Shown here in pieces: positions 3,472-62,573 of a stretch of DNA of 64,000 nucleotides (position 1 is the stretch's first letter; every line of letters starts with the position of its first letter). The notes under the pieces were generated by a model. It was not told where the DNA came from. It saw nothing but the letters and a program-made list of their open reading frames with translations, and ran no database searches. The stretch is taken from positions 806,001-870,000 of the forward strand of contig JABTUV010000001.1 of the NCBI GenBank assembly GCA_015075175.1, read 5' to 3'. This DNA comes from a bacterium. GTDB lineage: Bacteria; Hinthialibacterota; Hinthialibacteria; H5-UNCL2. Both the position numbers and the translations under genes were made by a program.

Positions 3472-5228
3472 ACGCGGAGGCCGATGCGGAAGCCGTCGAA
3501 GTACGCGGCGTGCACAGCGTCAAGCTGGGGCGCGTGGTCCTGGGCCGCAGCACCGTGCTGCTGGTGCTGGGCGCGCTGGTCGGCCTGGTCGTCGGCGCGG
3601 TCACAGTGGCCTACCGGCACGTGGTGCATTGGGGCAACAGCTTTCTTCTGGAGAAGGGCCCCCTGGCGATGGAGGGCTCCTGGTATCTGCGGTTGCTCTT
3701 TCCTGCTGCGGGCGGGCTTCTGGTCGGACTGCTCCTGCGACGCTACTATTCACAACCGCATGTTTACGGCATTCCCTCCGTAATTCGCGCGGTGCAGCGC
3801 AACCGGGTGCTGTTTCCCTGGACGATGCTGTATCCGTCGCTGGGTTCGGTAGTGATTCTTTCCAGCGGCGGCTCGGCCGGACCGGAAGGGCCGATCGCCG
3901 AGATCGGGTCGGTCTTCGGAGCCAAGATCGGACGCTTGTTTCGCGTGCACCGACGCATGTACCGCACGCTGGTCGCGGCGGGCGTGGCCGCCGGCATCTC
4001 CGCCATCTTCTCCGCCCCCATCGGAGGGGTCCTCTTCGCCCTGGAAGTGATCCTGCTTGAGTTCGAGCTGGTGTCGTTTGCGCCCGTCGTCATCGCCTCG
4101 GTTGTGGCTTCGCTGTTCTGCCAGGCGGCCTTCGGACAGGAGCCGGCCATCCGCGCCGGCCAGTTCCAGATCAACCACTGGGAGATTCCCTATTTCGTGC
4201 TGTTGGGACTGGCGATGGGACTCTTGTCGCTGGCCTATATCCGGTTTTTGGACTTCTCCGCCTACCACTTCAAGCGGATTCCTCTGCCCCGCTGGGTCCT
4301 GCCGGCGCTGGGAGGACTCCTGGTGGGCTGCGTCGGCATTCCCTTCTACCAGGTGATGGGCGAGGGCTACGGATTCATCAACACGGCTTTGGCGGGCCGC
4401 TATCCCGCTACGATTCTATTGGCGCTCCTGGTGGCCAAGTTCCTGGCGACCGGCATCACCCTGGGTTCGGGCGCGCCGGGGGGCAGCTTTGCTCCCGCCC
4501 TGTTTGTGGGCGCGATGGGAGGGTGCCTCCTGGGCAGGGTCTTTCACGCCATGAGTCCCGGCGTGGTCGGCGAAGCGGGCATGTATGGACTGATGGGGAT
4601 GGCGGGCATGATCGCCGGCGCCTTCAACGCCCCCATGACCGCCATCATGATCTTCTATCGTGAAACCCACGGCGAGTATCACATGCTCCTGCCGCTGATG
4701 ACCACGGTCGCGTTCTCCATCGCCGTGATGAGCCGCTGGGGCAACGTCTCGCTTTACACCAACACGCTGCGCAAGCTGGGCGAGTGGATCCCTCCCGGCC
4801 AGGAGCGGGACCCGCTGTACGGACTGGTGGTGGGCGACATACTCTCTCCGCGCGCCGAGGTCATGCCCGCCCACGTGACCGTAGCCCAAGCGATGGCCCG
4901 CATGAACGAGCTGGACGCCGCCAGCGTCGTTGTCGAAGACGACAAGCACCAATACGTGGGGCTGGTGAACCTGGACGATTTGCGACTGGCCCTGGCCGAT
5001 CCGATGATGGAGAACCTGATTACGCTGGGCGATGTGGTGGATCCCACGCTTCCGTGGCTGGAGCCGAACTCCAGTCTTTCGGACGCGATTCGCGTGTTTG
5101 CTTCCAGCCGGCGCGAGGCGCTGCCGGTGTTCGAGGATTCGCCGGTCAGGAATTTCGTGGGCATTGTCTCGCGCGGGGCGGTGATCGACGCCTATCGCGA
5201 TTCGCGCATCGAAACCCCGCAATCGTAG
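3468..5228 (+). CDS. ClC-family chloride channel or H+/Cl- exchanger with C-terminal CBS pair
   Basis: This 586-residue integral membrane protein starts at a GTG overlapping the EIIA stop. ClC signature elements are present: 'GIPSVIRAV', a 'GSAGPEGPIAEIG' selectivity loop (residues ~134-146), which keeps the gating glutamate (GPEGP for GREGP), and 'GSGAPGGSFAPALFVGA' (~336-352), the GxFxP motif. About ten further hydrophobic segments surround them. Two CBS domains follow (about residues 450-580), which in this family bind adenine nucleotides and modulate gating. The retained gating Glu allows either a channel or an exchanger. The final TAG is the first triplet of a palindromic repeat that fills the gap to murJ on the other strand. 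Confidence 0.9.
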   Translation: MNAEADAEAVEVRGVHSVKLGRVVLGRSTVLLVLGALVGLVVGAVTVAYRHVVHWGNSFLLEKGPLAMEGSWYLRLLFPAAGGLLVGLLLRRYYSQPHVYGIPSVIRAVQRNRVLFPWTMLYPSLGSVVILSSGGSAGPEGPIAEIGSVFGAKIGRLFRVHRRMYRTLVAAGVAAGISAIFSAPIGGVLFALEVILLEFELVSFAPVVIASVVASLFCQAAFGQEPAIRAGQFQINHWEIPYFVLLGLAMGLLSLAYIRFLDFSAYHFKRIPLPRWVLPALGGLLVGCVGIPFYQVMGEGYGFINTALAGRYPATILLALLVAKFLATGITLGSGAPGGSFAPALFVGAMGGCLLGRVFHAMSPGVVGEAGMYGLMGMAGMIAGAFNAPMTAIMIFYRETHGEYHMLLPLMTTVAFSIAVMSRWGNVSLYTNTLRKLGEWIPPGQERDPLYGLVVGDILSPRAEVMPAHVTVAQAMARMNELDAASVVVEDDKHQYVGLVNLDDLRLALADPMMENLITLGDVVDPTLPWLEPNSSLSDAIRVFASSRREALPVFEDSPVRNFVGIVSRGAVIDAYRDSRIETPQS

Positions 5229-5273
5229 TTGCGCAGCGTGCTGCGCGGGAGCAAGCAGCCGCACTCCACATCA
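5226..5273. repeat. Palindromic repeat filling the 3'-3' junction of clc and murJ
   Basis: It consists of GTAGTTGCGCAGCGTGCTGC followed by the AGCAAGCAGCCGCACTCCACA module. The left end supplies the TAG of the ClC gene, and the right end abuts the TGA of murJ (5271-5273). Other copies of the left module are at 55018, 57679, 57710 and, inverted, 57790. Confidence 0.75.
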
Positions 5274-6944
5274 TCCGCGGCGCCGCAGGTCCCGCACGAA
5301 AACCTGCAATTCCTCCCGCGCCAAAAGCCACGTCAGGCCCAGGTAGGCGACGACTCCCAGCGGGATGCCCAATCCCAGTTGCAGCGCCGCGGTTCCCTTG
5401 CTGTCCAAGGGCCACGGCAGCATCCCCAGGAGGGCGGTCACGGCTACGCCCATCCCGACCGAAGCCAGGAGGCATCCCCAAAAAGACCGTGCCAGCCCCC
5501 CCTGCCAATCGCGCCCGATGAAGCGACCTAGGAGCCACGCCAGGAGCGAAACGTTGGTCAGCGCCGAGATGGTCGTGGCCGCCGCCAGTCCCGTCGCCCC
5601 GAAGTCGAGCACCAGGATGAACAGAATCGAGCACGTCACATTCAAGCCCAGGCAGGCCAGCGTCACGCGCACCGGCGTCTTGGTGTTATGAAACGAGTAG
5701 AAGGCCGTTGACAATACCTTGACGCCCGAATGGCCGATCAACCCGATGCTGTACGCGACGAGCGCCCAGACGGTGCGGTCGAAGAGATTCTCGTGCGCGA
5801 AGCGGCCATGCTGGTAGACCAGGTAGACCGCCGGTGCGGAGAGTACCACCAGCCCGACCGTGGATGGCAGCATGACGAAAAACAACATGCGCAGACTGTG
5901 GTTCACCTCGCGGTGGAACGGTCCGCGGTCTTCGGACAGCGTCCGCCCCGCCAGGCGCGGAAAAGCCGCCGTCGAAATAGCGATGGCCAGGACGCCCAGC
6001 GGGAATTGAAACAGGCGGTTGGCGTAGTAAAGGGCCGACACGGCGCCCTCCTCCACGTGAGTCGCCAGCATGGTGTTGATGAGCAGGGCCAGTTGGTTGC
6101 CTGCCAGGCCGAGGACCATGGGGCCCATCAGCAGCATGATGCGGCGCGTCTCCGGATGCCACAACCCGCCCCGCAGTTGGCGAAAAAGGCCCTCGCGGCG
6201 CAGGCTCGGAACTTGAAACAACCATTGAAAAGCCCCTCCCAAAACGAGCGCGACGGACAGGCCGACGACCATGAGGACCTGGGTGGAAGGAAACCGGCCG
6301 GCGACAAAGTCGAGGGCGTTGACGGCGCCCCACAGGTCGGGCGCGACGCCGGCGAAGAAGGCGCCGGCGGCGACGAGAAAGATGATGTTGGTCAAGTTAA
6401 AAAGGACCGGCGACAAGGCCGGAATGCCCAGCCGTCCCAGGCTGTTCAACTGCCCCATCGCCAACCCGGCCAGGCAGATGAAAATGAGAAACGGAAACAT
6501 GATGCGGATCAGGAGCAGGGACAGGGAGATCTTCTCGGGATCATCCGACCAGCCGGGGAGATAGATGGAGACGAACCACGGCGCGGTGAGGATGCCCACG
6601 ATCGACACGACAGTCGTAACCAGGGCCAGCAGGCGCAGGAGACTCGTGGCCAGTCGGTCGGCTTCCTCTCGCCCGCGCTGCTTGTGGATGCGGATGAAAG
6701 TGGGAATGAAGGCGGCGGAAAAAGCGCCCTCGGCGAAGAGAAACCGCAACAGGTTGGGTACCCGGGAAGCCGCCAGGAAAGCGTCGGAGACGGGCGCGGA
6801 GAAGTAGTTGGAGATGAGAGCGTCGCGCACGAGGCCGGTAATGCGCGACAGAAGCGTCGCCGCCGAGACCACCCCGGTAGACCGCAGGAGGCTGCCGGAG
6901 CGTTGGGCGGGCGCGCCGGGAGGCAGCTCGGGCATGGCCGGCAC
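5271..6944 (-). CDS. murJ: Lipid II flippase MurJ (MviN family)
   Basis: It moves lipid-linked peptidoglycan precursor across the inner membrane. The 557-residue product has about fourteen hydrophobic segments and MATE/MOP-superfamily sequence typical of MurJ: 'SAATLLSRITGLVRDALIS', 'SDAFLAASRVPNLLRFLFAE', 'GAFSAAFIPTF', 'YYANRLFQFPLGVLAIAIS'. A longer open frame extends upstream to 7205. However, a GGAGGAG stands eight bases before a GTG at 6944 (an ATG follows at 6935), so I take the GTG as the start and treat the upstream part as untranslated. The gene converges on the ClC gene, with only a palindromic repeat between them. Confidence 0.92.
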   Translation of the reverse strand: MPAMPELPPGAPAQRSGSLLRSTGVVSAATLLSRITGLVRDALISNYFSAPVSDAFLAASRVPNLLRFLFAEGAFSAAFIPTFIRIHKQRGREEADRLATSLLRLLALVTTVVSIVGILTAPWFVSIYLPGWSDDPEKISLSLLLIRIMFPFLIFICLAGLAMGQLNSLGRLGIPALSPVLFNLTNIIFLVAAGAFFAGVAPDLWGAVNALDFVAGRFPSTQVLMVVGLSVALVLGGAFQWLFQVPSLRREGLFRQLRGGLWHPETRRIMLLMGPMVLGLAGNQLALLINTMLATHVEEGAVSALYYANRLFQFPLGVLAIAISTAAFPRLAGRTLSEDRGPFHREVNHSLRMLFFVMLPSTVGLVVLSAPAVYLVYQHGRFAHENLFDRTVWALVAYSIGLIGHSGVKVLSTAFYSFHNTKTPVRVTLACLGLNVTCSILFILVLDFGATGLAAATTISALTNVSLLAWLLGRFIGRDWQGGLARSFWGCLLASVGMGVAVTALLGMLPWPLDSKGTAALQLGLGIPLGVVAYLGLTWLLAREELQVFVRDLRRRG

Positions 6945-10081: not shown

Positions 10082-11515
10082 ATGGACGAGCGGCATAAGG
10101 GTCGGATACTTCTGGTGGAGGATGACGCCCGCTACGCGGAGCGGCTGGCGCGCAACCTGGCGCTGGACGGCTTCGCCGTGGACGTGGCGGCTTCCGGCGA
10201 GGCGGCGCTGGAGGCGCTTTGCAGCGTCCGGCCCGACCTCGTCCTGACCGACCTGAAGATGCCCGGCATGAGCGGGATCGAGCTTTTGGAGCGCATCAAG
10301 AGCGGCCGCCATCCCGGCGTGGATGCGGACGTGCCCGTGGTCGTCCTGACCAGCATGGACTCGGCGCGGCTGGCGGTGGAGTCGCTCAAGAAAGGCGCGG
10401 CGGACTACCTAACCAAGGAGGGGGAGCGCGACGAGATCAGCCTGCGGGTGGCGCGCGTGATCCGCGAGAGTCGCCTGGCGCGCCAGAACGCCCTCCTGCG
10501 CGACCAGATTCGCACCCAGAGCGAATTCGGCGAAATGGTCGCGGTCTCCGCCGCCATGCAGCGCGTGTTGGAGGAGGTGCGGCAGGTCGCCGACAGCGAC
10601 GCGACGGTGCTCGTGCGGGGCGAAACCGGCGTGGGCAAGGAACTGGTCGCGCGCGCCCTGCACAACCTCTCCAGCCGCCGCGACCAGGTTTTCCTGGAGG
10701 TCAACTGCGCCGCCCTTCCCGACGACAACATGTTCCAGTCCGAGCTCTTCGGCCATGAGCGGGGCGCCTTTACCGGCGCGGACGTCCAGAAGAAGGGGCG
10801 CTTTGAGCTGGCCGGCGAAGGCACGCTCTTTCTGGACGAAGTCGGCGACCTTTCGCTGGATTGCCAGGGCAAGATCCTGCGCGCGGTCGAGAATCGCGAG
10901 ATCACGCGGCTGGGGGGAGAGAAGAAGATTCGCGTGGATGCGCGCTTCATTTTTGCGACCCATCGCGACTTGGCCCGGGAGGTCGAGCGGGGGCGCTTCC
11001 GCGAGGACCTGCTGTATCGCATCAACGTGATTCAGATTCATATACCGCCCTTGCGGGAGCGGCCGGAGGACATCGATGCGCTGGCGCAGCATTTTCTCTT
11101 TCGTTTCGCCGAGCGCTACCGGCGGACGCCGCTCCTTTTGGAGGAGGACGCGCGCCGGCAGTTGGCGGCCCATGCCTGGCGGGGCAACGCGCGCGAGTTG
11201 CGCAACCTGATGGAGCGGCTGGTGCTGACCCATCCGGGCGAGCGCGTGACCGCCGCTGATCTGGTCGCCGGCGGCATCGCCGGCCGCCCCAGCGACGGTC
11301 TCTTCCGCCTGCCTCCGGGGGGCATGGCCTTGGAGGACCTGGAGCGCCATGCCATCCTTTCCGCGCTGGAGCAGTCCGGCTGGGTGCAAAAGGACGCCGC
11401 CGCGCTTCTATCAATCTCTCCCGATCGCCTGCTGTCGCGCATCCGCAAGTTCGGGATAACTCATCCCTCCTGGCGCATCCATCGCGGAAGCGAGGATTCC
11501 TGCCATGAATCTTAA
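10082..11515 (+). CDS. Sigma-54-dependent two-component response regulator (NtrC family)
   Basis: A 477-residue transcription activator. The receiver domain (residues 1-125) has the acidic pocket E13-D14-D15, phosphoacceptor D57 in 'LVLTDLKMPG', and switch residues T90 and K112. The AAA+ domain has Walker A 'GETGVGKE' (~180-187), the sigma-54 contact loop 'GAFTGA' intact (~229-234), Walker B 'GTLFLDEVGDL' and arginine-finger region 'GRFREDLLYRINVI'. A Fis-type helix-turn-helix ends the protein ('KDAAALLSISPDRLLSRIRK'). It would open sigma-54 promoters after phosphorylation. No kinase is adjacent; the GAF-GAF histidine kinase at 53 kb is a candidate partner only by family. The stop codon falls at the start of a hexanucleotide repeat. 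Confidence 0.92.
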   Translation: MDERHKGRILLVEDDARYAERLARNLALDGFAVDVAASGEAALEALCSVRPDLVLTDLKMPGMSGIELLERIKSGRHPGVDADVPVVVLTSMDSARLAVESLKKGAADYLTKEGERDEISLRVARVIRESRLARQNALLRDQIRTQSEFGEMVAVSAAMQRVLEEVRQVADSDATVLVRGETGVGKELVARALHNLSSRRDQVFLEVNCAALPDDNMFQSELFGHERGAFTGADVQKKGRFELAGEGTLFLDEVGDLSLDCQGKILRAVENREITRLGGEKKIRVDARFIFATHRDLAREVERGRFREDLLYRINVIQIHIPPLRERPEDIDALAQHFLFRFAERYRRTPLLLEEDARRQLAAHAWRGNARELRNLMERLVLTHPGERVTAADLVAGGIAGRPSDGLFRLPPGGMALEDLERHAILSALEQSGWVQKDAAALLSISPDRLLSRIRKFGITHPSWRIHRGSEDSCHES

Positions 11516-11628
11516 TCTTGCTCTTGTTCTTAATCTTAATCTTAATCTTGCTCTTAATCTTGCTCTTGCTCTTAATCTTGCTCTTGCTCTTGCTCTTGCT
11601 CTTGATTTTGGTCTTGCTCTTAATCTGA
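11505..11628. repeat. Hexanucleotide microsatellite (CTTAAT / CTTGCT units)
   Basis: About twenty 6-base units alternate between CTTAAT and CTTGCT with a few variants, starting inside the last codons of the NtrC-type gene and running toward prfA. On the plus strand it would encode alternating Leu-Asn/Leu-Ala, on the minus strand Lys/Ser/Arg-rich sequence. Neither reading has other gene features. Confidence 0.85.
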
Positions 11629-11723
11629 TGCCAGGGTGGTTCGGGTGTGCGGCAAACGGGGCGGGTCGGGTATTCCAACCCGAGCCACGGGCGAGAATGC
11701 TTGTACCGGTATGAGAAAGCGCC

Positions 11724-12821
11724 ATGATGTCCGAAGATAACCATACCCTTTTGGCTACCGCAGAGTTGGTGCTGGCGAAGCTGGCGGAGTTGGAGACGGC
11801 GCTGGCGGACCCGAAGTTGCACGGGGACCGCGAGCGGGCGCAGGAGGTGGGCCGGCGGCATAGCGCCATTCTGCCGGCGGCGCAATTGGCGCGCCGCTAC
11901 AAGCATCTCTGCGATGAAATCGCCGACTTGCGGTCGGTGCTTGCCGAGGGCGATCCCGAGCTGGCCGAACTGGCGCGCGAGGAACTGCCCGGCAAGGAGG
12001 AGCAGCGGGCCGCGCTGGAGCAGCCGCTGCGCGAGGCCCTCCTGCCGCCCGATCCCGACGACCAGCGCAGCGTGGTGGTCGAAATCCGCGCCGGTACCGG
12101 CGGTGAGGAGAGCGCGCTCTTCTGCGCCGACCTCTTTCGTGCCTATTGCCGTTACGCCGAGCGGCGCGGCTGGAAGGTGGAACTGATCTCCTCGCACGAG
12201 ACCGGCATCGGCGGTTTTAAAGAAGTCATCTTCACCGTTGAGGGCAAAGAGGTCAACAAGGCGATGAAGTACGAAAGCGGCACGCATCGCGTGCAGCGCG
12301 TGCCCGTCACGGAAGCCAGCGGTCGCATTCACACCTCCGCGGTGACGGTCGCCGTGATGCCGGAGGCGGAGGAAGTGGACGTGGATCTCAACCAGGCCGA
12401 TCTTCGCGTGGATCGATACTGCTCGTCGGGGCCGGGCGGGCAGGGCGTCAATACCACCTACAGCGCCATCCGGCTCACGCATCTGCCCACGGGCCTCGTG
12501 GTCACCTGCCAGGACGAGCGCAGCCAGATCAAGAACAAGGCCAAGGCGATGAAGGTGCTGTTGGCGCGGCTGCGCGACCTGGAGCGGTCCAAGCTCGAGG
12601 CGGAGCAGCGCGACCTGCGACGCAAGCAGGTCGGCAGCGGCGACCGCAGCGAGCGCATTCGCACCTACAACTTCCCGCAGAGCCGCGTCACCGACCATCG
12701 CATCGGGTTCACGGTGTACAATCTTCCGGAGGTGATGGAAGGCGACTTCACCGCGCTGCACGAGGCGCTGGCCGCCGAGGACCGCCGACTGCTTCTGGAA
12801 TCCGGCGCCAGCGTCCTATAG
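11724..12821 (+). CDS. prfA: Peptide chain release factor 1
   Basis: It recognises UAA and UAG stop codons in the ribosomal A site and triggers release of the finished protein. Its 365 residues match the usual ~360. The GGQ catalytic motif is in '[18 protein letters not shown]' (~239-241), and the tripeptide anticodon region reads PVT in '[18 protein letters not shown]', as expected for RF1 and not RF2. The N-terminal coiled-coil domain and the C-terminal '[13 protein letters not shown]' segment are complete. No methyltransferase prmC is next to it. The gene ends in TAG, which forms one end of a palindrome shared with the convergent HDAC-family gene. UAG is an RF1 codon and is common beside repeats in this window. 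Confidence 0.95.
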
Positions 12822-12845
12822 GTCCCATGGGTCCCATACGTCCTA
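12819..12845. repeat. Short GGTCCCATGGGTCCCAT repeat between convergent stop codons
   Basis: TAG-GTCCCATGGGTCCCATAC-GTC-CTA: the whole gap between prfA and the HDAC gene is this repeat, and both stop codons are its ends. A relative lies between the convergent bacilliredoxin and ilvN stops at 29900-29920. Confidence 0.6.
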
Positions 12846-20404: not shown

Positions 20405-20531
20405 GGTAGCGCCGGCGTCCCGCCGGCTCGCGTGGAGGGCGTCCCGCCCCCACGCTTCGCGCGTTCTGTGTCGCCTGGCCGAAGCGTGTGGGCAAGATGC
20501 CCACAGGCGAGCCGGCAGGATGCCGGCGCTA
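20405..20531. repeat. Dispersed palindromic repeat cluster between rplS and the RNA methyltransferase
   Basis: GGTAGCGCCGGCGTCCCGCC at one end and its inverse GGCAGGATGCCGGCGCTACC at the other enclose a GTGTGGGCAAGATGCCCACA hairpin. The TAG of the methyltransferase (20529-20531 on the minus strand) is part of the right arm. Confidence 0.8.
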
Positions 20532-28524: not shown

Positions 28525-28606
28525 GGTCAGCGCCTAATTTTGCGAGCAGCCTTGCCAATTACGACAAATCTCTCGGCGAAATTAGGCGCTGACCCTAATT
28601 TTCCCC
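28513..28606. repeat. 94-bp palindromic repeat with perfect 28-bp arms
   Basis: The left arm (28513-28540, beginning GGGGAAAATTAGGGTCAGCG) is repeated inverted and without mismatch at 28579-28606, around a 38-base centre. Both flanking convergent genes (matrixin, ruvX) end Gly-Glu-Asn-TAG inside its arms. A second copy lies at 49693-49781. GGGTCAG-type palindromes of this kind are often moved by RAYT/Y1 transposases; none is in the window. Confidence 0.85.
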
Positions 28607-46074: not shown

Positions 46075-46182
46075 GCTATTTTATTGAAATTCATTCAACT
46101 GCCGGGTGAGTCTCACTTGTCGAGCCGCGTCGCTTGCGCCCACGTCCCAGGCGCACACAGGGTTCCGGTCGCCTGCGACCCC

Positions 46183-46395
46183 GGCTGTCGTTTCGCCCCC
46201 GGCTGTCATATCGCCCCCGGCTGTCGTTTCACCCCCGGCTGTCATTTCACCCCCGGTTGTCATTTCGCCCCCGGCTGTCATTTCGACCGAAGGGAGAAAT
46301 CCTGGGCTTGGCGTGCGGCGTCCGATCCATGCTGGGAAAGATTTCTGCCTGCGGTCGAAATGGCAGGTTGGCCCCCCTTCAGTCGAAATGACAGT
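46183..46395. repeat. Tandem CCCCCGGCTGTCATTTC units joined to a TTTCGACCGAAGGGAG inverted repeat
   Basis: About six 18-base units of the form CCCCCGGCTGTCATTTCG (46186-46285) run into TCATTTCGACCGAAGGGAGA, whose inverted partner CCTTCAGTCGAAATGACAG closes the element near 46395. The second part belongs to a repeat widely seen in unrelated bacterial genomes. Confidence 0.75.
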
Positions 46396-47815: not shown

Positions 47816-48289
47816 GAGCAGAAGGGACAGTCACTTATTTCGGCCGACCGTCCGCCGATGGCGCGGAGGGAATGCTTCGGCAATGGATGTCTGCATTTTA
47901 AAGATGGGCCCTGAGAGGGTTTCGGGAGAAGAAAAACCGAGTCCTCGAGTAGCGGCGCGCCGGTTAGTCTGCTTGAAGTGCGAGATGTAGCTACGCGCCG
48001 CGTATCGAGAGGACGGTCGGCGGGACGAGGGACAATCCCCCACGAGGCTTCGCCTCACCCGTAGAGGATAAAAACCGAGGCAGCTCCGAAGGCGGCATGC
48101 TTGCGTCCAGCCCGTCCTCTCGATACGCCGGAGTACCGGCTACTCGAGGACTCGGTTTTTCTTGCTTTCGCCAGTCAATGAGGGGCCATTTTGAGAGCAG
48201 GCGCCGATTTCCGAAGATGGATGCGTGCGTGAGGCGAGGCAGGTCGGCGGAAATTGGTGACTGTCCCGAGGCTGTCCCGGCGTTCCCGT
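47816..48289. other. Gene-free repeat-rich region between gdhA and the NodB-like gene
   Basis: No gene is seen. It carries two CTCGAG/CTCGATACG repeat copies (see 47925-48165) separated by a short spacer, plus unassigned sequence on either side. Confidence 0.55.
47925..48165. repeat. Inverted pair of CTCGATACG...GGACTCGGTTTTT repeats
   Basis: The left copy (47933-48013) is inverted: AAAAACCGAGTCCTCGAGTA ... GTATCGAGAGG. The right copy (48117-48161) is the direct form and shares 43 bases with the core of the MITE-like element at 25955-25997. Confidence 0.75.
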
Positions 48290-49692: not shown

Positions 49693-49781
49693 GGAAAAAT
49701 AGGGTCAGCGCCTATTTTTTCGGCAACTGTCGCGATCTCGCAGCTACTGGCGGCAAAAATAGGCGCTGACCCTATTTTTCC
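49693..49781. repeat. Second copy of the AGGGTCAGCGCCTA palindrome
   Basis: GGAAAAATAGGGTCAGCGCC at 49693 and its inverse GGCGCTGACCCTATTTTTCC near 49763-49781 enclose a ~33-base centre. It is related to the copy at 28513-28606, with one A/T fewer per arm. The TAG of bioB lies at its outer edge. Confidence 0.8.
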
Positions 49782-50796
49782 TATTTTTCCGCCGTGGCGC
49801 GTTCCAACAGATGCGGCCGGTCGTGGACCAGGCCCAGGTCGGCGACCATGCGCAAGTCTTCTTCCACCGGACGGCCGTAAGTCGTCAGATAGTTGCCGAG
49901 CATGGCGGCGTTGGCGCCGGCGTAGAACATCCAGCTCTGCTGATCGCGCAGGTTGGCCTCGCGCCCGCCGCAGATGCGGATGTCGGCGCGGGGGTGGATG
50001 AGGCGCGCGATGGAAATGCAGCGCAGCGCCTCGCGCGGCGTGATCCGCGCCGCCCCCTCCAGCGGCGTGCCGGCAATCGGATTGAGAAAGTTGAGCGGCA
50101 GCGAATCAGCGCCGATTTCCGCCAGGGTGAACAAAGGTCCAGCCGATCCGATAGCCTCGCCCATGCCGAAGATGCCGCCCGAGCAGGCTTCATGCCCGCC
50201 GCCCGCACCGCCGAGAGCGTCGCCAGCCGCTCGGCGTAGCCGTGCGTGGTGCAAATCCTAGGAAAAAAGCGCTCGCTGGTCTCCAGGTTGTGGTTGACCA
50301 TCTCCATGCCGGCCGCGGCCAGTTCGGCCGCCTGCTCGGCGGTGAGAATCCCCAGCGAGCCGCCGCGGCGGATTTCACTGCGCTCGGCCATGCCGGCCAG
50401 CGTCTCCTTGAAATGCTCCATCTCGCGTTCGCTCGGGCCGTAACCGGAGACCACGAAGCCGAAGCAGCGCGCGCCGTTCTTCTCGGCGTCCACCGCCGCG
50501 CCGACGATCTTATCCACCGGCATAAGCCCGTACACGGGCGCGTCGGTCTTGTAGCGGGCCGCCTGCGAGCAAAAGCTGCAGTCCTCGCTGCACGCGCCCG
50601 ACTTAGCGTTGACGATGGAGCAGAACTCGATGCGGTCGCCCTTGAAATGCAGCCTCACCTTGTTGGCCGCGTACATGAGGTCGTGGAGATCGACGGCATT
50701 GCCGCAGAGCCTCTCCGCCTCGGGGCGCGTGATCGCCCCGCCGGCGATGATGCGCTCCGCCAGCGCCGACAGATGCTCGGGAAAAAACGTCGCCAT
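49781..50796 (-). CDS. bioB: Biotin synthase (one frameshift)
   Basis: A radical-SAM enzyme that inserts sulfur into dethiobiotin. From ATG 50796: 'DLHDLMYAANKVRLHFKGDR', then the 4Fe-4S cluster motif CxxxCxxC in 'SGACSEDCSFCSQAARYKTD', 'FGFVVSGYGPSEREMEHF', 'MEMVNHNLETSERFFPRICT'. Near 50185 one base is missing; the other frame continues 'CSGGIFGMGEAIGSAG', 'LPLNFLNPIAGTPLEG', 'RICGGREANLRDQQSWMFYA' and 'GANAAMLGNYLTTYGR'. The restored length is about 338 residues, normal for BioB. No other biotin gene is adjacent. Confidence 0.9.
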
Positions 50797-50876: not shown

Positions 50877-51050
50877 TGTAGGGTGCGCACCGCGCACCGA
50901 CCGCACCGCGCACCGACGCCACCGCGCACCGATCGCACCGCGCACCGATCGCACCGCGCACCGACCGCACCGCGCACCGAGGCCACCCGCGCCAGCAAGC
51001 TGGCGCACTCCACACTCCCCCCTTAACAGGGGGGGCCGGGGGCATTGCGG
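50877..51050. repeat. 15-base tandem repeat (GCACCGCGCACCGAC) plus composite repeat
   Basis: It begins GTAGGGTGCGCACCGCGCACC, the arm of the palindrome at 56105-56173, expanded into about seven 15-base units to ~50985. A GCCAGCAAGCTGGCGCACTC hairpin and a CCCCCCTTAACAGGGGGG hairpin follow to ~51050. Confidence 0.8.
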
Positions 51051-51052
51051 CG

Positions 51053-51388
51053 CTACCGATTATGCCGGTAGAGCAGCACGCGCACGATCTCCTGTGTGAC
51101 CAGTCCCTCTTCGATCATGCCGTCCAGCGCAGGCAGAAAGGCGTCGATCTTGTCGGGAGCGTCCACGATCTCGACCACCATGGGCAGGTCTTCGGAGAGA
51201 CGCAGGATTTTGGCCGTATGCAGGCGGCTGTTGGCGCCGAAGCCGAGCGTGCCGCGCAAGACGGTCGCCCCGGCCAGCCCCATCTCGCGCGCCTTCAGCA
51301 CGATGGCTTCGTAGAGCGGCCGTCCGTCGTGCTTGTCGTTCTCCCCCACGAAGATGCGCAGGAGTTCCGCGTACATCGGCGTTTTCAT
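51053..51388 (-). CDS. DUF190 PII-like protein
   Basis: 111 residues from ATG 51388 (GGAGG five bases upstream). 'AELLRIFVGENDKHDGRPLY', 'EAIVLKAREMGLAGATVLRG' and 'GFGANSRLHTAKILRLSEDL' form a ferredoxin-like, PII-type fold. DUF190 genes are regularly adjacent to crcB, as here, and are thought to modulate fluoride export. The exact ligand is not known. The stop TAG is followed at once by repeat sequence. Confidence 0.88.
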   Translation of the reverse strand: MKTPMYAELLRIFVGENDKHDGRPLYEAIVLKAREMGLAGATVLRGTLGFGANSRLHTAKILRLSEDLPMVVEIVDAPDKIDAFLPALDGMIEEGLVTQEIVRVLLYRHNR

Positions 51389-52776: not shown

Positions 52777-53178
52777 ATGAAACGCTATGACGTTTCCACT
52801 CATGCCCACCAGGAGCTGGTGGATGTGACCGACAGGGTCCGCCGGGCCGTACAGGAATCGGGCGTCTCCGAGGGAATCTGCGTGGTGTTCGTCCCCCATA
52901 CCACGGCCGGCGTGACCATCAATGAAAACGCCGACCCGGACGTGGGGCGCGATCTACTCACGGCTCTGGAACGTGCGGTCCCCTGGAAGGGCGACTATCG
53001 CCACGGGGAGGGCAACAGCGCGGCCCACGTGCGCGCCAGCCTGGTCGGCAGTTCGTGCCACGTGATCGTTTCCGGCGGCGACTTGGAGTTGGGGACCTGG
53101 CAGGGCATCTACTTCGCCGAGTTTGACGGCCCGCGGCGCCGGCAACTGTGGGTGCAGGTATTGGAGCGCGCTTCGTGA
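52777..53178 (+). CDS. yjbQ: YjbQ/UPF0047 family protein
   Basis: 133 residues from ATG 52777 (GGGAGGG upstream). 'VDVTDRVRRAVQESGVSEGI', 'CVVFVPHTTAGVTINENADP', 'RHGEGNSAAHVRASLVGSS' and 'LELGTWQGIYFAEFDGPRRR' contain the conserved His/Asp/Glu cluster of the family. Some members can complement thiamine phosphate synthase mutants, but the normal role is unknown. The stop overlaps the possible GTG start of the kinase gene. Confidence 0.9.
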   Translation: MKRYDVSTHAHQELVDVTDRVRRAVQESGVSEGICVVFVPHTTAGVTINENADPDVGRDLLTALERAVPWKGDYRHGEGNSAAHVRASLVGSSCHVIVSGGDLELGTWQGIYFAEFDGPRRRQLWVQVLERAS

Positions 53179-53180
53179 CC

Positions 53181-55020
53181 ATGGCCGTGCGTTCGCGTGA
53201 AGAGCGCCTGGAGGCGCTCATCGCCATCGGCCGCAAGCTGGCCGCCGAACTGGAGCCGGACGGCTTGCTCCACTCCATCGTCGAGAGCGCGACCCAGCTT
53301 CTGGGCGCGACCAGCGGCTCCCTGATGACGCTCTCTCCCACCGACGGCGTTACGCTGGACATCCGCGTGGCGGTCGGGTTTAACACCGAGAAATGGAAGG
53401 CGCTCAAGCTGCGCCGCGGCCAGGGCATCACCGGCTGGGTCGCCGAGATAGGCCAGCCGCTGCTCGTGCCCGACGTGTCCCAGGACGCGCGATACTATCC
53501 GCTGGACGCCTCCATCCACAGCGAGCTGGCCGTGCCGCTCATTCTGGGAGGGCGGGTGATCGGGGTGCTGAACGTGGACAGCACGCGCCTGTCGGCCTTC
53601 CAGGAGGAGGACGTCGAACTGTTGTCCGCACTGGCGGCGCACTCGGCGGCGGTGTTGCGCAACGCCGAACTTTACCAGGAGAGCCGCAACCACGCGCGCA
53701 TGTTGCGTGCCCTCCTGTCGATTTCCGGCAGCCTCACTTCCAGCCTGGAGCGCGAGGAGATTCTTAACACCGTCGTGGCTCGCACTACGCAACTGATGCG
53801 CGTGAAGATGTGCGCGTTGTTTCTTCTGGACGAGTCGGGGACGGCCCTCTATCCCGAGACCGCCTACGGATGCAGCCCGCGCTACCTGGAGTCGCGCGCG
53901 CTGTCCTTGGAGAACTCGCTTCTGGGTCAGGCGGCGCGGGAGCGGCGGCCCGTGCTCTCGCTCAACGTGCGCACCGATCCTCGCTATCATCAGCCCGACT
54001 TGGCGCGCGAGGAGGGGCTCTATTCGCTGCTGGCCGCGCCCATGGTTTTTCAGGGGAAGCTTTTGGGCGTCTTGTGCGTCTATTCCGCGCATCCGCACGT
54101 CTTCACGCAGTCGGAGGAGGAGATTCTATGCACGCTGGCGGACCTCTCGTCGGCGGCGCTGGCCAACGCCCGCCTGCATCGGCAGGTGGTCGAGGCGGAG
54201 GAGCAGCGCGTGCGCCTGGAGAAACTTTCCGCGCTCGGCGAAGTCGCCGCCGGGCTGGCGCATGAAATCAGGAACCCGCTGGCGGTGATGAAAATGCTCC
54301 TGCATGGGTTGTCCTCGGAAGCGCCGCCGGGCAGCTCTCAATCCGAAGACCTGGAGATTCTCTCCTCGAAGGTGGCCGAGATCAGCGGCGTCGTCAACCA
54401 ACTGCTGCTTTTGGCGCGGCCCGTGCCGCTGGAGCGCCATCCCTTGCAGCTTTCCGAGTTGGTGCAGGAGACGCTGGGGCTGGTACGTCATCGCCTGCGT
54501 GAAAATCACATCGAGTTGGAGACCGAGCTGGCGGAAGGTCCGCCCGTGGTCGGCGACAAGGGGCGGCTGTCGCAGCTCCTGCTCAATCTGATTCTCAATT
54601 CGTGCGACGCCATGCCGCACGGCGGCCGCTTGTGCGTGAGATTGAGTTATACGGAGTGCGGCGTCCCCCTCACTAACCCTCTCCCTCAGGGAGGACGTTC
54701 ACCTCTCCGGGAGAGGTCGGCGCCAAGCGCCGGGCGGGGAGGATGCTGAAACCGGCCCGCTCCCGCCGCGGCAGCAATCTGCCGCACTCCACACGGCGGG
54801 CGAAGCGGTTCTTCTCATCGAGGACACCGGCCAGGGCATCGGCGTCGAGGTCCTGACGCGCCTTTTCGAGCCGTTTACCACTTCCAAACCCAACGGCATG
54901 GGCCTGGGGCTGTCGATCGCCAAGCGCATCGTGGAGGAGCACGGCGGCCGCCTCCTCCCGCACAACCATCCCGGCGTGGGGTTGACGATGGAGATCAGAC
55001 TACCGGTCAACACATCGTAG
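53181..55020 (+). CDS. GAF-GAF sensor histidine kinase interrupted by a repeat insertion
   Basis: ATG 53181 (or GTG 53175, overlapping the yjbQ stop). Two GAF domains (~25-165 and ~185-335) sense an intracellular signal; there is no transmembrane segment, so the protein is cytoplasmic. The dimerisation/phosphoacceptor helix has His361 in 'GLAHEIRNPLAVMKMLLHGL', and the N-box is 'LLNLILNSCDAMPHGG'. At about 54650 the gene is entered by ~140 bases of repeat sequence that end the frame at 54749. The ATP-binding remainder 'AVLLIEDTGQGIGVEVLTRL', 'FEPFTTSKPNGMGLGLSIAK' continues in frame 1 to TAG 55018-55020. Frame 1 is open through the whole insertion, so one lost base could explain the break. 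Confidence 0.82.
54652..54797. mobile_element. Composite repeat inserted in the histidine kinase gene
   Basis: It is bounded by GGAGTGCGGC at the left and GCCGCACTCC at the right. It contains the CACTAACCCTCTCCCTCAGG / CCTCTCCGGGAGAGG module and a GCGGCAGCAATCTGCCGCAC hairpin, both of which are dispersed elsewhere in the window. It lies between the N-box and G1-box codons. Confidence 0.75.
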
Positions 55021-55080
55021 TTGCACAGCGTGCTGCGCCGGCGTTCAAAGTCCACGCGCCGGCAAGGATGCCGGCGGTAC
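55018..55080. repeat. GTAGTTGCACAGCGTGCTGC repeat with GCCGGC hairpin
   Basis: Its first triplet is the TAG of the kinase gene. GCGCCGGCAAGGATGCCGGC then links it to the second family. Confidence 0.65.
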
Positions 55081-55085
55081 GGACT

Positions 55086-55442: not shown

Positions 55443-56108
55443 GTGCAGACGACAGAATACCATCGCATCTTGGAACTGCCGGTCGATGCCGACCCGCCGG
55501 CCATCCGCGCCGCCTTCCGCCGGGCGGTCAAGCAGGTTCATCCAGACGTTCGACCCGGTAACGGCGCGGACAGCCGGGAACTCGACTCGATTCTACGCGC
55601 CTACCAGGCTTTGATGCGCGAGGCGCCGCCGGTCCTGCGCGCGCCTGTACCGCACCGCCCGACGTCTGACCCGGTGGAGGCGGCGGCGCGCACGTTCCTG
55701 GCCCCGATGCCGCGCTGGGAGGGCGACTTGGAGCGTCAACTGGACGCCCTGCCGCTGTCCGAGCTGGCGCACTGCCTCTCCACGTGGCTGGACCGGCATG
55801 GCCGCTGCGCGGCGGCGCGAGCCTTGGCCCGCCGGCGCCAGGCCGGCGCCATGCGACTCCTGCTCGTGGCCCTGGACCAGGAAGTGGACCGATCCGTCAA
55901 AGTGGAGATGATCCGCGCGCTGGGGCGCTCCGGCGACCGTCGCGCCATTTTTCGCCTGGCGGGACTTTTGGACGACCCCGATCCGCGGATTGCGCGGGCC
56001 GCGCGCCTGGCGGTGGAACGGCTGGACGCTTTCCACGCGCGCCACGCCACCTTTTCGCCCCACAGCCCCCACTGGCTGCGCCGCCTTGTTGCCTGGCTGC
56101 GCCTGTAG
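55443..56108 (+). CDS. J-domain protein with HEAT-like C-terminus
   Basis: 221 residues from GTG 55443, the first start after the promoter. An N-terminal J domain has 'EYHRILELPVDADPPAIRAA' and the HPD motif in 'FRRAVKQVHPDVRPG', so it can stimulate a DnaK-type ATPase. The C-terminal ~90 residues form two HEAT-type repeats ('KVEMIRALGRSGDRRAIFRL', 'AGLLDDPDPRIARAARLAVE'), suggesting a client- or partner-binding module. It lacks the Gly/Phe and zinc-finger parts of DnaJ. TAG is the start of a palindromic repeat. Confidence 0.82.
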   Translation: MQTTEYHRILELPVDADPPAIRAAFRRAVKQVHPDVRPGNGADSRELDSILRAYQALMREAPPVLRAPVPHRPTSDPVEAAARTFLAPMPRWEGDLERQLDALPLSELAHCLSTWLDRHGRCAAARALARRRQAGAMRLLLVALDQEVDRSVKVEMIRALGRSGDRRAIFRLAGLLDDPDPRIARAARLAVERLDAFHARHATFSPHSPHWLRRLVAWLRL

Positions 56109-56173
56109 GGTGCGCACCGCGCACCATCCCCGCGGGAAAGCGGTGGGCCGTAGGTGCGCGGTGCGCACCCTAC
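56105..56173. repeat. 69-bp palindrome with perfect 21-bp arms between convergent stops
   Basis: GTAGGGTGCGCACCGCGCAC(C) at 56105-56125 is inverted exactly at 56153-56173. The TAG of the J-domain gene (56106-56108) and the TAG of the glycosyltransferase (56172-56170) are in its two arms. The same arm is tandemly expanded at 50877-50985. Confidence 0.88.
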
Positions 56174-57570
56174 CGGCCCAGGAGGCGCTCCAAGAAGCCC
56201 TTGGGGCGGGCGCGCGGCGGCAGTTCCAGTGATCCTCCGGCCGTGCCCGGTTCCAGAAACATGTCCAGCGCCTCGTCCAGCGGCGTCGGTTCGCGGGAGG
56301 CGGCCGGCTCATGGTCGGGCGCGTAGCTGGGGTGCTCCGCCCAAGTCAACAGCGCCCGCGTCGTCGCCTCGAAACTGAAGTTCTTGAAGGCATACTCCTT
56401 CCCCACCATTCCCACACGCCGGCATCGTTCCCGGTTCTCCGACAAGTCTGCCAGCATGTCGGCGATTCCCGCCGGATCGCGCAAAGGCAGCGCAAACGCC
56501 GCGCCCGCATCCACCAGTTCGCGGCTGATCTCCGTGGTCACGGTCGTCGCAACCGGCAGGCCCGCCGCCATCCACGAGAGGAAGCGGTTCCGCGCCCCCA
56601 GCTCCGATTCATACACCGGCAAGTCCACGTTGATCCCCACGTCCGCCTCCAGATAGGTATTGTGCAGGTCGGAATAGGGAATCCAACCCAGCATCTGAAA
56701 ACGATCTTTGAAGCGGCTCGTTTCGATCTTGCGTTGAAAGCGCAAATATCCGTCGGTGTGGTGGCCGGAGAGTCCGCCGCCGGTAGCGGCGAAGACCAGC
56801 CGCGGACTGCGCTCCATCGCCAGTTCCAGCGCGGCAAACAGGCTGTCTACATCGACCCAGGTGTTGAACCCCCCGCTCCATAGCACCACAAAGTCCAGCG
56901 GACCGACGACCACTCCCCGCAAGACGTCGGCGTCGTGCACGAACTCCTGCCGGGCGTCGATGCCGTTGGGGATGACGTGCACGAGCTCGTAGCCCAGTGT
57001 GTTGCGGTTCAGGCGCCCCATCATCGCCAGTTGTCCAATGACGGCCAGGCGCTGGCGGGCGGAGACGGTGGAAAATACATCCCCGTGCCGCAGCATCCGG
57101 CCCGTATGACGCAGGAAGAAGTCCAGCTCCGCATCGCTGGTAAAGGGCAGCTTGGCCTGCACTTCGGTCATGATGTCGCCGTTCAAGTCGAACCAGGTGG
57201 GCAGGTCCAGGTCCAACTGGAGCGCCAGCATGGAGGCGATGGGCGAGCCGGCGGAGACGACCGCGTCGGGGCCGAACTCCTCGATTTTCGGCTCCAACTG
57301 CCGCGCCAGCGCGGGCAGGCGCTCGGGCAACGGCTCGGGAATGGGTAAATGGAACAACGCGCCGTAACACTCCGGCGGATGGGTGTACTTCACTTCGGGC
57401 GTGGTATGCACGCCGAACTCGCCGGAGACGAGAAACACCTCGTGCCCGGCCCGCAGGAGGGGCAGCGCCAACTGCCAGGTCCCAGTACCGATGCCGGACA
57501 CGTAATCGTTTTCGTAAAAGGGCAGCGGACCCACGCCCAGAAGGAGAATCTTGCTCAAGCTCTTCCCCAA
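56170..57570 (-). CDS. GT-B glycosyltransferase (GT4-like)
   Basis: 466 residues. N-terminal Rossmann part: 'ILLLGVGPLPFYENDYVSGI', 'GTWQLALPLLRAGHEVFLVS'. C-terminal donor-binding part: 'LDFVVLWSGGFNTWVDVDSL', 'FQMLGWIPYSDLHNTYLEAD' and 'VGINVDLPVYESELGARNRF' with the ExxE-like donor motif, then 'MAAGLPVATTVTTEISRELV'. It probably transfers an activated sugar to a cell-surface or lipid acceptor; substrates cannot be read from the sequence. The start is a TTG at 57570 (or TTG 57558, which has GGGGAAG upstream). It ends in an Arg/Pro-rich tail. No sugar-pathway neighbours. Confidence 0.82.
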   Translation of the reverse strand: MGKSLSKILLLGVGPLPFYENDYVSGIGTGTWQLALPLLRAGHEVFLVSGEFGVHTTPEVKYTHPPECYGALFHLPIPEPLPERLPALARQLEPKIEEFGPDAVVSAGSPIASMLALQLDLDLPTWFDLNGDIMTEVQAKLPFTSDAELDFFLRHTGRMLRHGDVFSTVSARQRLAVIGQLAMMGRLNRNTLGYELVHVIPNGIDARQEFVHDADVLRGVVVGPLDFVVLWSGGFNTWVDVDSLFAALELAMERSPRLVFAATGGGLSGHHTDGYLRFQRKIETSRFKDRFQMLGWIPYSDLHNTYLEADVGINVDLPVYESELGARNRFLSWMAAGLPVATTVTTEISRELVDAGAAFALPLRDPAGIADMLADLSENRERCRRVGMVGKEYAFKNFSFEATTRALLTWAEHPSYAPDHEPAASREPTPLDEALDMFLEPGTAGGSLELPPRARPKGFLERLLGR

Positions 57571-57678
57571 GCCGTCGGAATGCGCTAGAGTCTACCATGC
57601 GGGAGTGAGGTGTCAACACGAGCCGGGGAATCCCTTGCCTGCCGCATCTGCCATCCGCGCGCGTGGGCTGTCTAGCCT

Positions 57679-57809: not shown

Positions 57810-57837
57810 GGGAGGCGGTGACGCAGGAGGGTTGACC

Positions 57838-59640: not shown

Positions 59641-62499
59641 ATGGTTCGCAAGGTCACCAGGAAAGCCGCCCGCAAGGCGGCCGGTAAGAAGCCCGCCGCT
59701 CGCAAGCCCGCGGCGAAAAAGACTTCGCTCAGGAAAGCCCCTGCTCGCAAGGTCGCCACGCCCAAAAAGGACAAGTACGTTTACTTCTTCGGCGGTGGGA
59801 AAGCCGACGGCAACGAGTCGATGAAGAACCTCTTGGGCGGCAAGGGCGCCAACCTGGCGGAAATGGCCGGCCATCCCGAGCTGCGCCTGCCCGTGCCTCC
59901 GGGGTTTACCATCACGACCGAGGTCTGCACGTATTATTACGCCCACAAGAAGACCTATCCCAAGGAATTGAAGGCCCAGGTGGAGGAGGCCTTGGGCCGA
60001 GTGGAGACGCTCATGGGCAAGAAGTTCGGCGACGTGCACAATCCGCTGCTCGTCTCTGTGCGCTCGGGGGCGCGCCGCTCCATGCCCGGCATGATGGATA
60101 CTGTCCTCAACATCGGCCTGAACGAGCAGACGATTGCGGGCGTGATCGAGCAGAGCGGCAATCCGCGCTTCGCCTGGGACTCGTATCGTCGCCTCATCAT
60201 GATGTACGCGGACGTGGTGATGGAGAAGGCCATGGGCCGCGCCCCCGCGCGTGGCAAGGGCATCCGCAAGCTCTTGGACGAGCGCCTGGAGGCGATGAAG
60301 CGCGCCCGCGGCGTCCACCTGGACACGGAATTGTCCACGGATGATCTCAGGGAGCTGGTCGCCGAATTCAAGGAGATGGTGCGCCGGGAGATGGGTGAGC
60401 CTTTCCCCGAGACGCCCTGGGAGCAGTTGTGGGGGGGCATCGGCGCCGTCTTCATGAGCTGGCAGGGCAAGCGCGCCGTCGAGTATCGTCGCATCGAGAA
60501 GATTCCCGACGAGTGGGGGACGGCCGTCAACGTGCAGGCCATGGTCTTCGGCAATATGGGCGAGGACTCGGCGACCGGCGTGGCCTTCACCCGCAATCCC
60601 GGCTCCGGCGAGAACGAGTTCTACGGCGAGTATCTGGTCAACGCGCAGGGCGAGGACGTGGTCGCCGGCATCCGCACCCCCGCGCCCATCAACGAGTACT
60701 CCAAGAACGCCCAGAGCGCCCACCTTCCCACGCTGGAAAAGTCCATGCCCCCCATCTACCGGCAGCTCTACGACATCCAGAAGCGGCTGGAGAAGCACTA
60801 CCGCGACATGCAGGACATTGAGTTCACCATCGAGAAGGGCGTGCTCTACATGCTGCAATGCCGGGTCGGCAAGCGCAACGGCGTGGCGGCGGTACGCATG
60901 GCGACGGAGATGTACAAAGAGAAACTGATCGACGCTCCCACCGCCATCATGCGGGTCGCGCCCAACCAGTTGGTCGAGCTTCTCTTGCCGATGCTGGACC
61001 CCAAGGCCGAGTTGGCGACGCATCCCATCGCCAAGGGACTGCCGGCGGGGCCGGGCGGCGCCAAGGGCCGCGTGGTCTTCACCTCGGAGGACGCCGTTGC
61101 GTGGGCCAAACGCGGCGAGAAGGTCGTGCTTGTACGCGAGGAGACCTCGCCTGAGGACGTGGACGGCATGCACAAGTCCCAGGCCATTCTCACTACCAAG
61201 GGCGGTATGACCAGCCACGCCGCCCTCGTCGCCCGCGGCTGGGGCAAATGTTGTATCGTCGGCTGCGGCGAGATCGAGATCGCCCACGACCACAAGTCCT
61301 TCACCACCAAGTCCGGCGAGGTCGTGCGCGAGGGCGAGATCATCGCCCTCAATGGCACCAAGGGTCTCGTCTACCACCGCGACATGCCCCTGGTTTCTCC
61401 CGATTTGGAGCACAACCAACCCTATCGCGACCTGATGAAACTGGTGGACAAGGTGCGCGTCCTCTCGGTTCGCACCAATGCGGACACGCCCCGCGACACA
61501 GAGAACGCGGTCAAGTTCGGCGCGGAGGGCATCGGCCTGTTTCGCACCGAGCACATGTTTTACGGGGAGGGCAGCGAGCAGCCGCTGTTTCTCTTGCGCA
61601 AGATGATCATGAGCCGGACCGTCGAGGAGCGTCGGCGCGCGCTGGACGAGCTCTTCGTGTACGTCAAGAACGACGTGAAGGCCACCATGGAGGTCCTCGC
61701 CGGCCTGCCCATCACCATCCGGCTCCTGGACCCGCCGCTGCATGAGTTCGTGCCCCATAGCGAGGACAAGCTGGAGGCGCTGGCGGCGGAGTTGGGCGTG
61801 GATATGCGTGAGCTCCATAAGCGCGCCCACGGCCTGCGTGAAAACAATCCCATGCTGGGCCATCGCGGCGTGCGGTTGGGCGTCACCTATCCCGAGGTCA
61901 CCGAGATGCAGGTCCGCGCCATCCTGGAGGCGGCAGGCGAGCTGATCAAGGCGGGCAAGAAGGCCCTGCCCGAGATCATGATTCCCGTCACCTGCAACGT
62001 CGAGGAACTGGCCGACCAGAAGGCCATCGTGGAGCGGGTCTACGGTCAGGTATGCGCCAAACTGGGTCTCCGGAAGATCCCGTATCTGTATGGAACCATG
62101 ATCGAGATTCCGCGCGCGGCGTTGACCGCCAACCGCATGGCCGAGGTCGCCGAGTTCTTCAGTTACGGGACCAACGACCTGACGCAGATGAGCTTCGGCT
62201 TCTCGCGCGACGACATCGGCTCGTTTCTTCCCGAATACCTGGAGCGGAAGATCCTGCCCGATGATCCTTTCCAGACCATCGACCAGGAGGCGGTCGGCGA
62301 GTTGATGCAGCTGGGCATCCAGCGGGGCCGGTCGGTGCGCAAGGACCTGAAGGTCGGCATCTGCGGCGAGCACGGCGGGGATCCGGCGTCCGTCGAGTTC
62401 TGCCATCGCATCGGCATGAACTACGTGAACCACTCGCCTTTCGGGTCCCCATCGCGCCTGGCGGCGGGCCCAGCCCTGAAGGACAAGGCGCGCAAGTAG
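59641..62499 (+). CDS. ppdK: Pyruvate, phosphate dikinase with a histone H1-like N-terminal tail
   Basis: It interconverts pyruvate, ATP and Pi with PEP, AMP and PPi. 952 residues. After ~45 residues of Lys/Ala/Arg/Pro repeats ('KAARKAAGKKPAARKPAA' and similar), the nucleotide-binding domain starts 'KYVYFFGGGKADGNESMKNL' and 'LGGKGANLAEMAG', with 'SVRSGARRSMPGMMDTVLNI'. The phosphohistidine domain has 'TTKGGMTSHAALVARGWGK' (catalytic His). The PEP/pyruvate barrel has 'GAEGIGLFRTEHMFYGEG', 'ENNPMLGHRGVRLGVTYPEV' and 'VGICGEHGGDPASVEFC' (catalytic Cys). No later start codon exists before the catalytic domain, so the basic tail must be translated. TAG is the first triplet of a repeat. Confidence 0.95.
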   Translation: MVRKVTRKAARKAAGKKPAARKPAAKKTSLRKAPARKVATPKKDKYVYFFGGGKADGNESMKNLLGGKGANLAEMAGHPELRLPVPPGFTITTEVCTYYYAHKKTYPKELKAQVEEALGRVETLMGKKFGDVHNPLLVSVRSGARRSMPGMMDTVLNIGLNEQTIAGVIEQSGNPRFAWDSYRRLIMMYADVVMEKAMGRAPARGKGIRKLLDERLEAMKRARGVHLDTELSTDDLRELVAEFKEMVRREMGEPFPETPWEQLWGGIGAVFMSWQGKRAVEYRRIEKIPDEWGTAVNVQAMVFGNMGEDSATGVAFTRNPGSGENEFYGEYLVNAQGEDVVAGIRTPAPINEYSKNAQSAHLPTLEKSMPPIYRQLYDIQKRLEKHYRDMQDIEFTIEKGVLYMLQCRVGKRNGVAAVRMATEMYKEKLIDAPTAIMRVAPNQLVELLLPMLDPKAELATHPIAKGLPAGPGGAKGRVVFTSEDAVAWAKRGEKVVLVREETSPEDVDGMHKSQAILTTKGGMTSHAALVARGWGKCCIVGCGEIEIAHDHKSFTTKSGEVVREGEIIALNGTKGLVYHRDMPLVSPDLEHNQPYRDLMKLVDKVRVLSVRTNADTPRDTENAVKFGAEGIGLFRTEHMFYGEGSEQPLFLLRKMIMSRTVEERRRALDELFVYVKNDVKATMEVLAGLPITIRLLDPPLHEFVPHSEDKLEALAAELGVDMRELHKRAHGLRENNPMLGHRGVRLGVTYPEVTEMQVRAILEAAGELIKAGKKALPEIMIPVTCNVEELADQKAIVERVYGQVCAKLGLRKIPYLYGTMIEIPRAALTANRMAEVAEFFSYGTNDLTQMSFGFSRDDIGSFLPEYLERKILPDDPFQTIDQEAVGELMQLGIQRGRSVRKDLKVGICGEHGGDPASVEFCHRIGMNYVNHSPFGSPSRLAAGPALKDKARK

Positions 62500-62573
62500 C
62501 GGCGACATTCTGTCGTCGATTGCGTAGCGGCGACATCTTGTCGCCGGTCTCGGCGGCGTCCCCGCCGCCGGTG
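62496..62573. repeat. GTAGCGGCGACATTCTGTCG tandem palindromic repeat after ppdK
   Basis: Two copies, GTAGCGGCGACATTCTGTCG (62496) and GTAGCGGCGACATCTTGTCG (62524), each self-complementary (CGGCGACA / TGTCGCCG), then CGGCGGCGTCCCCGCCGCCG. The ppdK TAG opens the first. Confidence 0.75.

Follow-up and report, generated by a model that had tools for sequence, protein, structure and literature searches.

Why do the stop codons of so many neighbouring genes coincide with the first bases of palindromic repeats that differ in sequence? The question is raised by a stretch of 64,000 nucleotides, referred to here as the window (positions 806001-870000 of contig 1), from a 4.98-Mb bacterial assembly of 49 contigs that is approximately 84% complete. 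A first-pass annotation of the window had named 13 stop codons lying in or abutting such repeats and knew of no described repeat class defined by the supply of stop codons to its hosts. Our analysis resolves this puzzling pattern to a known repeat superfamily and quantifies the fit between repeat and stop codon.

Materials and Methods

The sample comprised positions 1-800000 of contig 1 (loci L011-L050) and the window, together 864 kb, plus 40 other loci. The latter were picked for holding copies of repeat family A or H and are therefore informative on the offset between repeat and stop codon, not on its frequency. Genes were called with our own codon-statistics gene finder; single gene borders may be wrong, and the stop positions of long ORFs are independent of start choice. 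Repeat families were recovered de novo from 16-mers over-represented in the 864 kb, without a prior consensus. As copies were searched by ungapped consensus matching, diverged copies are missed, and judged by reversed-consensus controls some copies with five mismatches are possibly chance matches. Counts of the stop-codon fit refer to families A-D at no more than four mismatches and with GTAG or GTAA heads.

Repeat families and transposase genes

Families A (GTAGGGTGCGCACCGCGCACC), B (GTAGTTGCGCAGCGTGCTGCGC) and C (GTAGCGCCGGCATCCTGCCGGC) are REPs headed by GTAG, which is kept in 39/50, 39/59 and 13/34 of the scanned copies, respectively. Family D (GTARCGGCGACATCTTGTCGCCG), the consensus of which was derived from window copies, mostly carries GTAA. 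Families E (GGASTGCGGCAGCTTGCTGCCGC), F (GGAGTACAAACTTCAGTTTGCG) and G (GGAGTACAGGCTTCAGCCTGC) are headed by GGAG, and family H (TTRGGGTCAGCGCCYAATTTT) is a TIR-type miniature element. The 16-mer analysis also gave families I and J, which are unrelated to the others. The common (G/T)TAG start that had been noticed in several sequence families is real.

In the 864-kb scan, copy numbers were far above those of reversed-consensus controls. Genome-wide, family A (GTAGGGTGCGCACC) has 240 copies at up to two mismatches and its reversed pattern has none; no copy of family A was present in 13 further genomes from the same class. When all REP and TIR families are pooled, 31/237 clusters lie within genes, i.e. 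the repeats are dispersed and mostly intergenic. A-D combine a palindrome with an unpaired 5′ GTAG, high copy number and a location at gene 3′ ends, where they separate convergent or co-directional genes. Most likely, A-D are GTAG-tagged REPs, E-G their GGAG-headed relatives and H a TIR-type element. Arms of H number 101 at up to one mismatch, many of them arranged as inverted pairs about 60 nt apart, and TTGGGGTCAGCGCC is the most frequent head variant in the 800-kb sample. The spacers within these pairs are similar within subfamilies, which suggests that each pair moves as one unit of approximately 85-95 bp.

Only two Y1_Tnp (PF01797) genes, both above the cut-off, are present in the roughly 84% complete assembly, one on contig 46 and one on contig 5. 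They match NF047646 (REP_Tyr_transpos) with 70 and 74 bits at an equivalog cut-off of 80. With a Y1_Tnp domain, HVH/HYH motifs of the HUH type visible in the translations and association with REPs, both genes are of the RAYT/REP_Tyr_transpos-like type. The contig 46 gene (221 aa; L009 1130-1972) has H pairs in the TTAGGG form on both sides, and takes its own stop codon from the TTAG of a flanking H repeat. H can accordingly be placed among the TIR/TIRYT elements, in which TIRs of the type GGGGWSAS flank a Y1 transposase. The contig 5 gene (219 aa) is enclosed by clusters of GGAG-headed F repeats. Both layouts are of the REPtron/TIRtron kind known from the literature. For A-D, the assembly at this degree of completeness yielded no transposase gene with such repeats on its flanks.

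Repeats and stop codons in the window

Eleven of the 13 named stops indeed lie in or abut a dispersed REP or TIR element. The clc gene (3468-5228; Voltage_CLC and CBS domains) ends with TAG 5226-5228 in the head, at offset 0, of a B-family GTAG REP (GTAGTTGCGCAGCG...; 5225-5246, plus strand) without mismatches to the consensus. It is followed by an E-family GGAG REP (5245-5267, minus strand) 3 nt from the TGA stop of the convergent gene 5271-6944, with a head offset of −7. The two stops that did not conform are those of prfA (PCRF and RF-1 domains; TAG 12819) and of an HDAC-family gene (Hist_deacetyl domain; TAG 12845). They form the two ends of a repeat with a 9-bp period, TAGGTCCCATGGGTCCCATACGTCCTA (TAGGTCCCA TGGGTCCCA TACGTCCTA; 12819-12845, without strand assignment), which is not a REP-type palindrome; GGTCCCAT repeats of this kind are present elsewhere in the genome, too. 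Apart from these, a short tandem array of TCTTAA/TCTTGC units occupies 11498-11638.

The consensus scan located a two-ended C-family unit GTAG...CTAC (GTAGCGCCGGCATCC...) at 20406-20532, whose right end provides the stop TAG 20531-20529 of the RNA methyltransferase gene (20529-21083). An H-family TIR element (GGAAAATTAGGGTCAGCGCC...; 28513-28606, inverted repeat I1) separates a matrixin-type gene from ruvX, the latter identified by its RuvX domain, and its TTAG ends are the stops of both genes (28522-28524 and 28597-28595). Two other dispersed families, CTGTCATTTCGACCGAAGGGAGAAATCT and CCGCTACTCGAGGACTCGGTTTTTC, occur without TAG heads at 46275-46366, 25975-25999 and 47931-47955; each has more than 30 copies in 800 kb, with no enrichment beside stops. 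At 46161-46302, a short tandem array of 18-bp CCCCGGCTGTCATTTCGC units adjoins a TGTCATTTCGACCG repeat.

At bioB, the stop of the bioB frame (TAG 49783-49781) abuts an ATAG variant of the H element (49693-49781, inverted repeat I2) at an offset of 9 nt but lies outside the repeat head. The gene itself is apparently split over two frames at 49781-50796, a radical-SAM ORF (49885-50796) and an ORF with the BATS domain (49781-50254), reflecting either a true frameshift or an assembly error. An A-family GTAG REP at 50878-50898 (plus strand) is not at a stop and leads into a tandem array of 16-bp CGCACCGCGCACCGAC units (50886-50997). The stop TAG 51055 of the DUF190 gene (51053-51388) is the head of a degenerate C-family GTAG copy with five mismatches (51035-51056, minus strand).

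The histidine-kinase stop, TAG 55018-55020, does fall into the head of a B-family GTAG REP with one mismatch (55017-55038, plus strand), but it closes a separated C-terminal reading frame of an interrupted gene. Within 53175-55020, a GAF-GAF-HisKA ORF ends at 54749, and a different frame carries the C-terminal part on to 55018. The break holds a CCCTCACTAACCCTCTCCC-type repeat and an E-family GGAG REP (54768-54790, minus strand), and repeat insertion therefore probably interrupts the kinase. The gene 55674-56108, previously taken for a J-domain gene and found to contain a HEAT_2 domain, has its stop (TAG 56106-56108) in the head of an A-family GTAG REP (56105-56125, plus strand). The glycosyltransferase gene (56170-57534) has its stop (TAG 56172-56170) in the head of an inverted A copy (56153-56173, minus strand), both copies being recovered by the consensus scan. 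The stop of ppdK (59641-62499; TAG 62497-62499) is the head of a D-family GTAG REP with three mismatches (62496-62518, plus strand), and a second D-family GTAG REP without mismatches lies downstream (62524-62546, plus strand).

Four convergent gene pairs had been described as having both stops at the two ends of one palindrome. This holds for the inverted pairs at matrixin/ruvX and HEAT ORF/glycosyltransferase. The arrangement at prfA/HDAC is similar but involves the other type of repeat, and the clc pair has a TAG in a REP head on one side only, with a TGA abutting a GGAG REP on the other.

Precision of the stop-codon fit

Among the GTAG- or GTAA-headed copies in the 864 kb and the 40 loci, 53 coincide exactly with a stop, 9 begin 1-30 nt past a stop and 2 fall narrowly within a gene. 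The 864 kb alone account for 31, 5 and 2 of these, and the separately fetched 40 loci (22, 4 and 0) replicate the offset pattern. GGAG heads of the same genome serve as an internal control: none is at a stop, whereas 33 (25 + 8) lie within 30 nt downstream (Fisher p ~1e-17 for GTAG/GTAA versus GGAG offsets). The two types are similarly close to gene 3′ ends, with 36/109 outward GTAG edges versus 25/83 GGAG edges at 0-30 nt.

Heads with TAG or TAA serve as stops in 53/178 copies (31/112 in contig 1 and the window, the remainder in copy-selected loci), compared to 68/3192 non-REP GTAG tetramers (2.1%) in the same 800 kb. The coincidence, including the suspected in-frame use of TAG beyond chance, is real and statistically strong, and the in-frame precision exceeds the neutral 1-in-3 expectation. 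Nevertheless, most copies are found away from stops: about 70% of the TAG/TAA-headed copies are not stops, many of them being inner members of arrays. Moreover, GTAA-headed copies of C and D give TAA stops, and the GGAG-headed relatives supply no stop at all. Contrary to what had been supposed, the repeats are thus not defined by stop codons.

In 13 convergent pairs GTAG/GTAA heads face both genes; at least one head is an exact stop in 12 of them and both are in 5. An H element can provide TAG at its TTAG or, to a gene reading in another frame, TAA 13 nt further inwards. These elements also bring the two preceding codons, so that the matrixin-type protein, RuvX and the contig 46 transposase all end with -EN*. 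In the 800 kb of contig 1, a G precedes 60% of TAG, 61% of TAA and 29% of TGA stops, most of which are not linked to REPs. Hidden REPs behind all GTAG/GTAA stops were considered and rejected, since a strong hairpin is missing behind most of these stops.

Approximately 14 REP-stopped proteins have a profile that extends to the C-terminus. At most a few profile positions are missing in these proteins, which end 2-15 residues later. Complete Pfam/NCBIfam profiles include NtrC-like, Fe-ADH, T2SSE, GATase1_like, DUF123, DUF1634, GH123_N, RuvX, DUF190 and RNA methyltransferase. REP heads thus sit at or near natural C-termini; among ten ordinary genes taken as a control, about three were measurable. 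With the profiles complete, truncated coding tails are unsupported as a source of the stops.

Discussion

We consider it rather probable that mobile REPs are kept at gene ends where their head terminates the reading frame cleanly. A-H would be small non-autonomous palindromes spread by IS200/IS605-like single-strand transposases (RAYT/TIRYT), with GTAG as the unpaired 5′ motif that the transposase would require. Insertions into gene bodies would be lost, and copies would therefore build up at gene 3′ ends. A GTAG or GTAA head that lands in frame at the end of a gene would provide a new stop, and the copy would be tolerated. Landing out of frame would cause the protein to be read through the hairpin, and the copy would be removed. 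According to this scheme, families A-D are presumably mobile, and selective retention would account for the in-frame precision. The offsets are not in full accordance with it. With a simple frame filter, copies shortly after stops should be more numerous than observed; the GGAG and H repeats have them, A and B hardly, and the 53:2 ratio of in-frame to read-through copies is more extreme than such a filter suggests.

Both the ratio and the scarcity of downstream A and B copies would be explained by guide-directed targeting, in which the tetranucleotide on the 5′ side of the hairpin would pick the target by base-pairing, in analogy to IS608. GTAG would pair with CTAC and GTAA with TTAC; read on the opposite strand, these targets are the stop contexts GTAG and GTAA. 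Insertion would rebuild the stop and thus leave the gene unharmed, so that a mobile element would reach harmless sites by restoring the very stop that it enters. In line with this idea, the 53:9:2 fit is above the neutral 1-in-3 frame expectation (binomial p ~3e-23 against read-through), GTAG and GTAA heads both occur and match TAG and TAA stops, and G is in excess before TAG and TAA but not TGA stops (60% and 61% versus 29%). Furthermore, both stops coincide exactly with heads in 5/13 convergent pairs with outward heads, and GTAG has been proposed as a cleavage-site guide for TnpA-REP (PMC8266576). We still regard targeting of this kind as unlikely. H carries its own E-N codons and its TAG or, at +13, other-frame TAA, so the stop arrives there with the element; published cleavage needs only a CT or CA dinucleotide; and in E. 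coli, where TAG stops are admittedly rare, the heads never are stops. Selection of the hairpins at stops as bidirectional terminators or mRNA stabilizers, akin to the bidirectional 3′ ends envisaged in the first pass, appears improbable as the main cause. Clusters of REPs are over-represented between convergent genes (54/206 intergenic clusters versus 76/616 gaps, in loci that are partly copy-selected), and in E. coli, REPs located within 15 nt of a stop cause ribosomes to stall, according to work cited in PMC12306157. A functional 3′ end, however, leaves unexplained why GGAG heads lie 4-13 nt downstream whereas GTAG heads lie on the stop. It is very doubtful that the repeats inserted just downstream and the native stop was lost later wherever the TAG of the head was in frame. 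The about equal frequency of GTAG and GGAG heads at gene 3′ ends would fit such a ratchet, but among copies 1-60 nt downstream, those in frame are not depleted (about 10/31 by hand count). Undiverged copies are already at stops (29/86 copies with no mismatch), which also disfavours it; neither frame distribution nor copy divergence lends it support.

Empty sites should look different under targeting than under selection, which makes the choice of REP landing sites testable. The relatives from the same class, which lack family A, are too distant for a reading of empty sites (prfA identity ~52-57%).

The repeat class itself has been described. GTAG- and CGTC-tagged REPs form a superfamily with 24 GTAG families (PMC3733652), and the termini of GTAG REPs "often provide" the TAG stop, as reported by Di Nocera, De Gregorio and Rocco in 2013 (PMC3733652). 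The repeats of the window are therefore not a new class, contrary to the initial assumption, but GTAG-tagged REPs together with one TIR-type element. GTAG is essential or important for cleavage by TnpA-REP, depending on the enzyme, and has been proposed as a guide (PMC8266576). The start that the repeats share is this transposase recognition motif rather than a product of convergence on stop codons. REPs around rayt genes can sit immediately after the rayt stop (PMC2817692). In a literature search covering few subscription journals, no paper turned up in which the precision of the stop overlap is either explained or measured.

Like the REPs of PMC3733652, those described here are palindromes of 20-40 bp from many families with an unpaired GTAG at one end, occur as inverted dimers downstream of or between convergent ORFs, and have termini that give TAG stops. 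This likeness to the 24 published families is one of architecture. What differs here is that GTAA and GGAG heads are found as well in one genome and that the overlap has been measured for precision against an internal control. SMAG elements of Stenotrophomonas (PMC2613905) share the GTAG head, the GC-rich palindrome, the high copy number and the occurrence as singles, pairs and arrays; sequence and host differ. Family H resembles the TIRYT-associated TIRs (PMC3733652), since TTGGGGTCAGCG contains GGGGTCAG, which fits GGGGWSAS, a Y1 transposase gene is flanked on both sides, and small inverted pairs are dispersed in the genome. Its window copies are TTAG and ATAG variants one base off GGGGWSAS, and it is from these variants that the stop comes. 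The REP/BIME elements of E. coli with their TnpA-REP have the GTAG head and the location at gene 3′ ends in common with ours. In 350 kb of E. coli K-12, however, 0/45 GTAG/ATAG heads were at a stop, the heads lying downstream of stops (TAG stops are rare in this sample, 11/280 genes), so that not all GTAG REPs supply stops. In summary, the repeat superfamily and its stop-codon habit are known; what we add is the instance presented here, with a measured precision and a GGAG control from the same genome.
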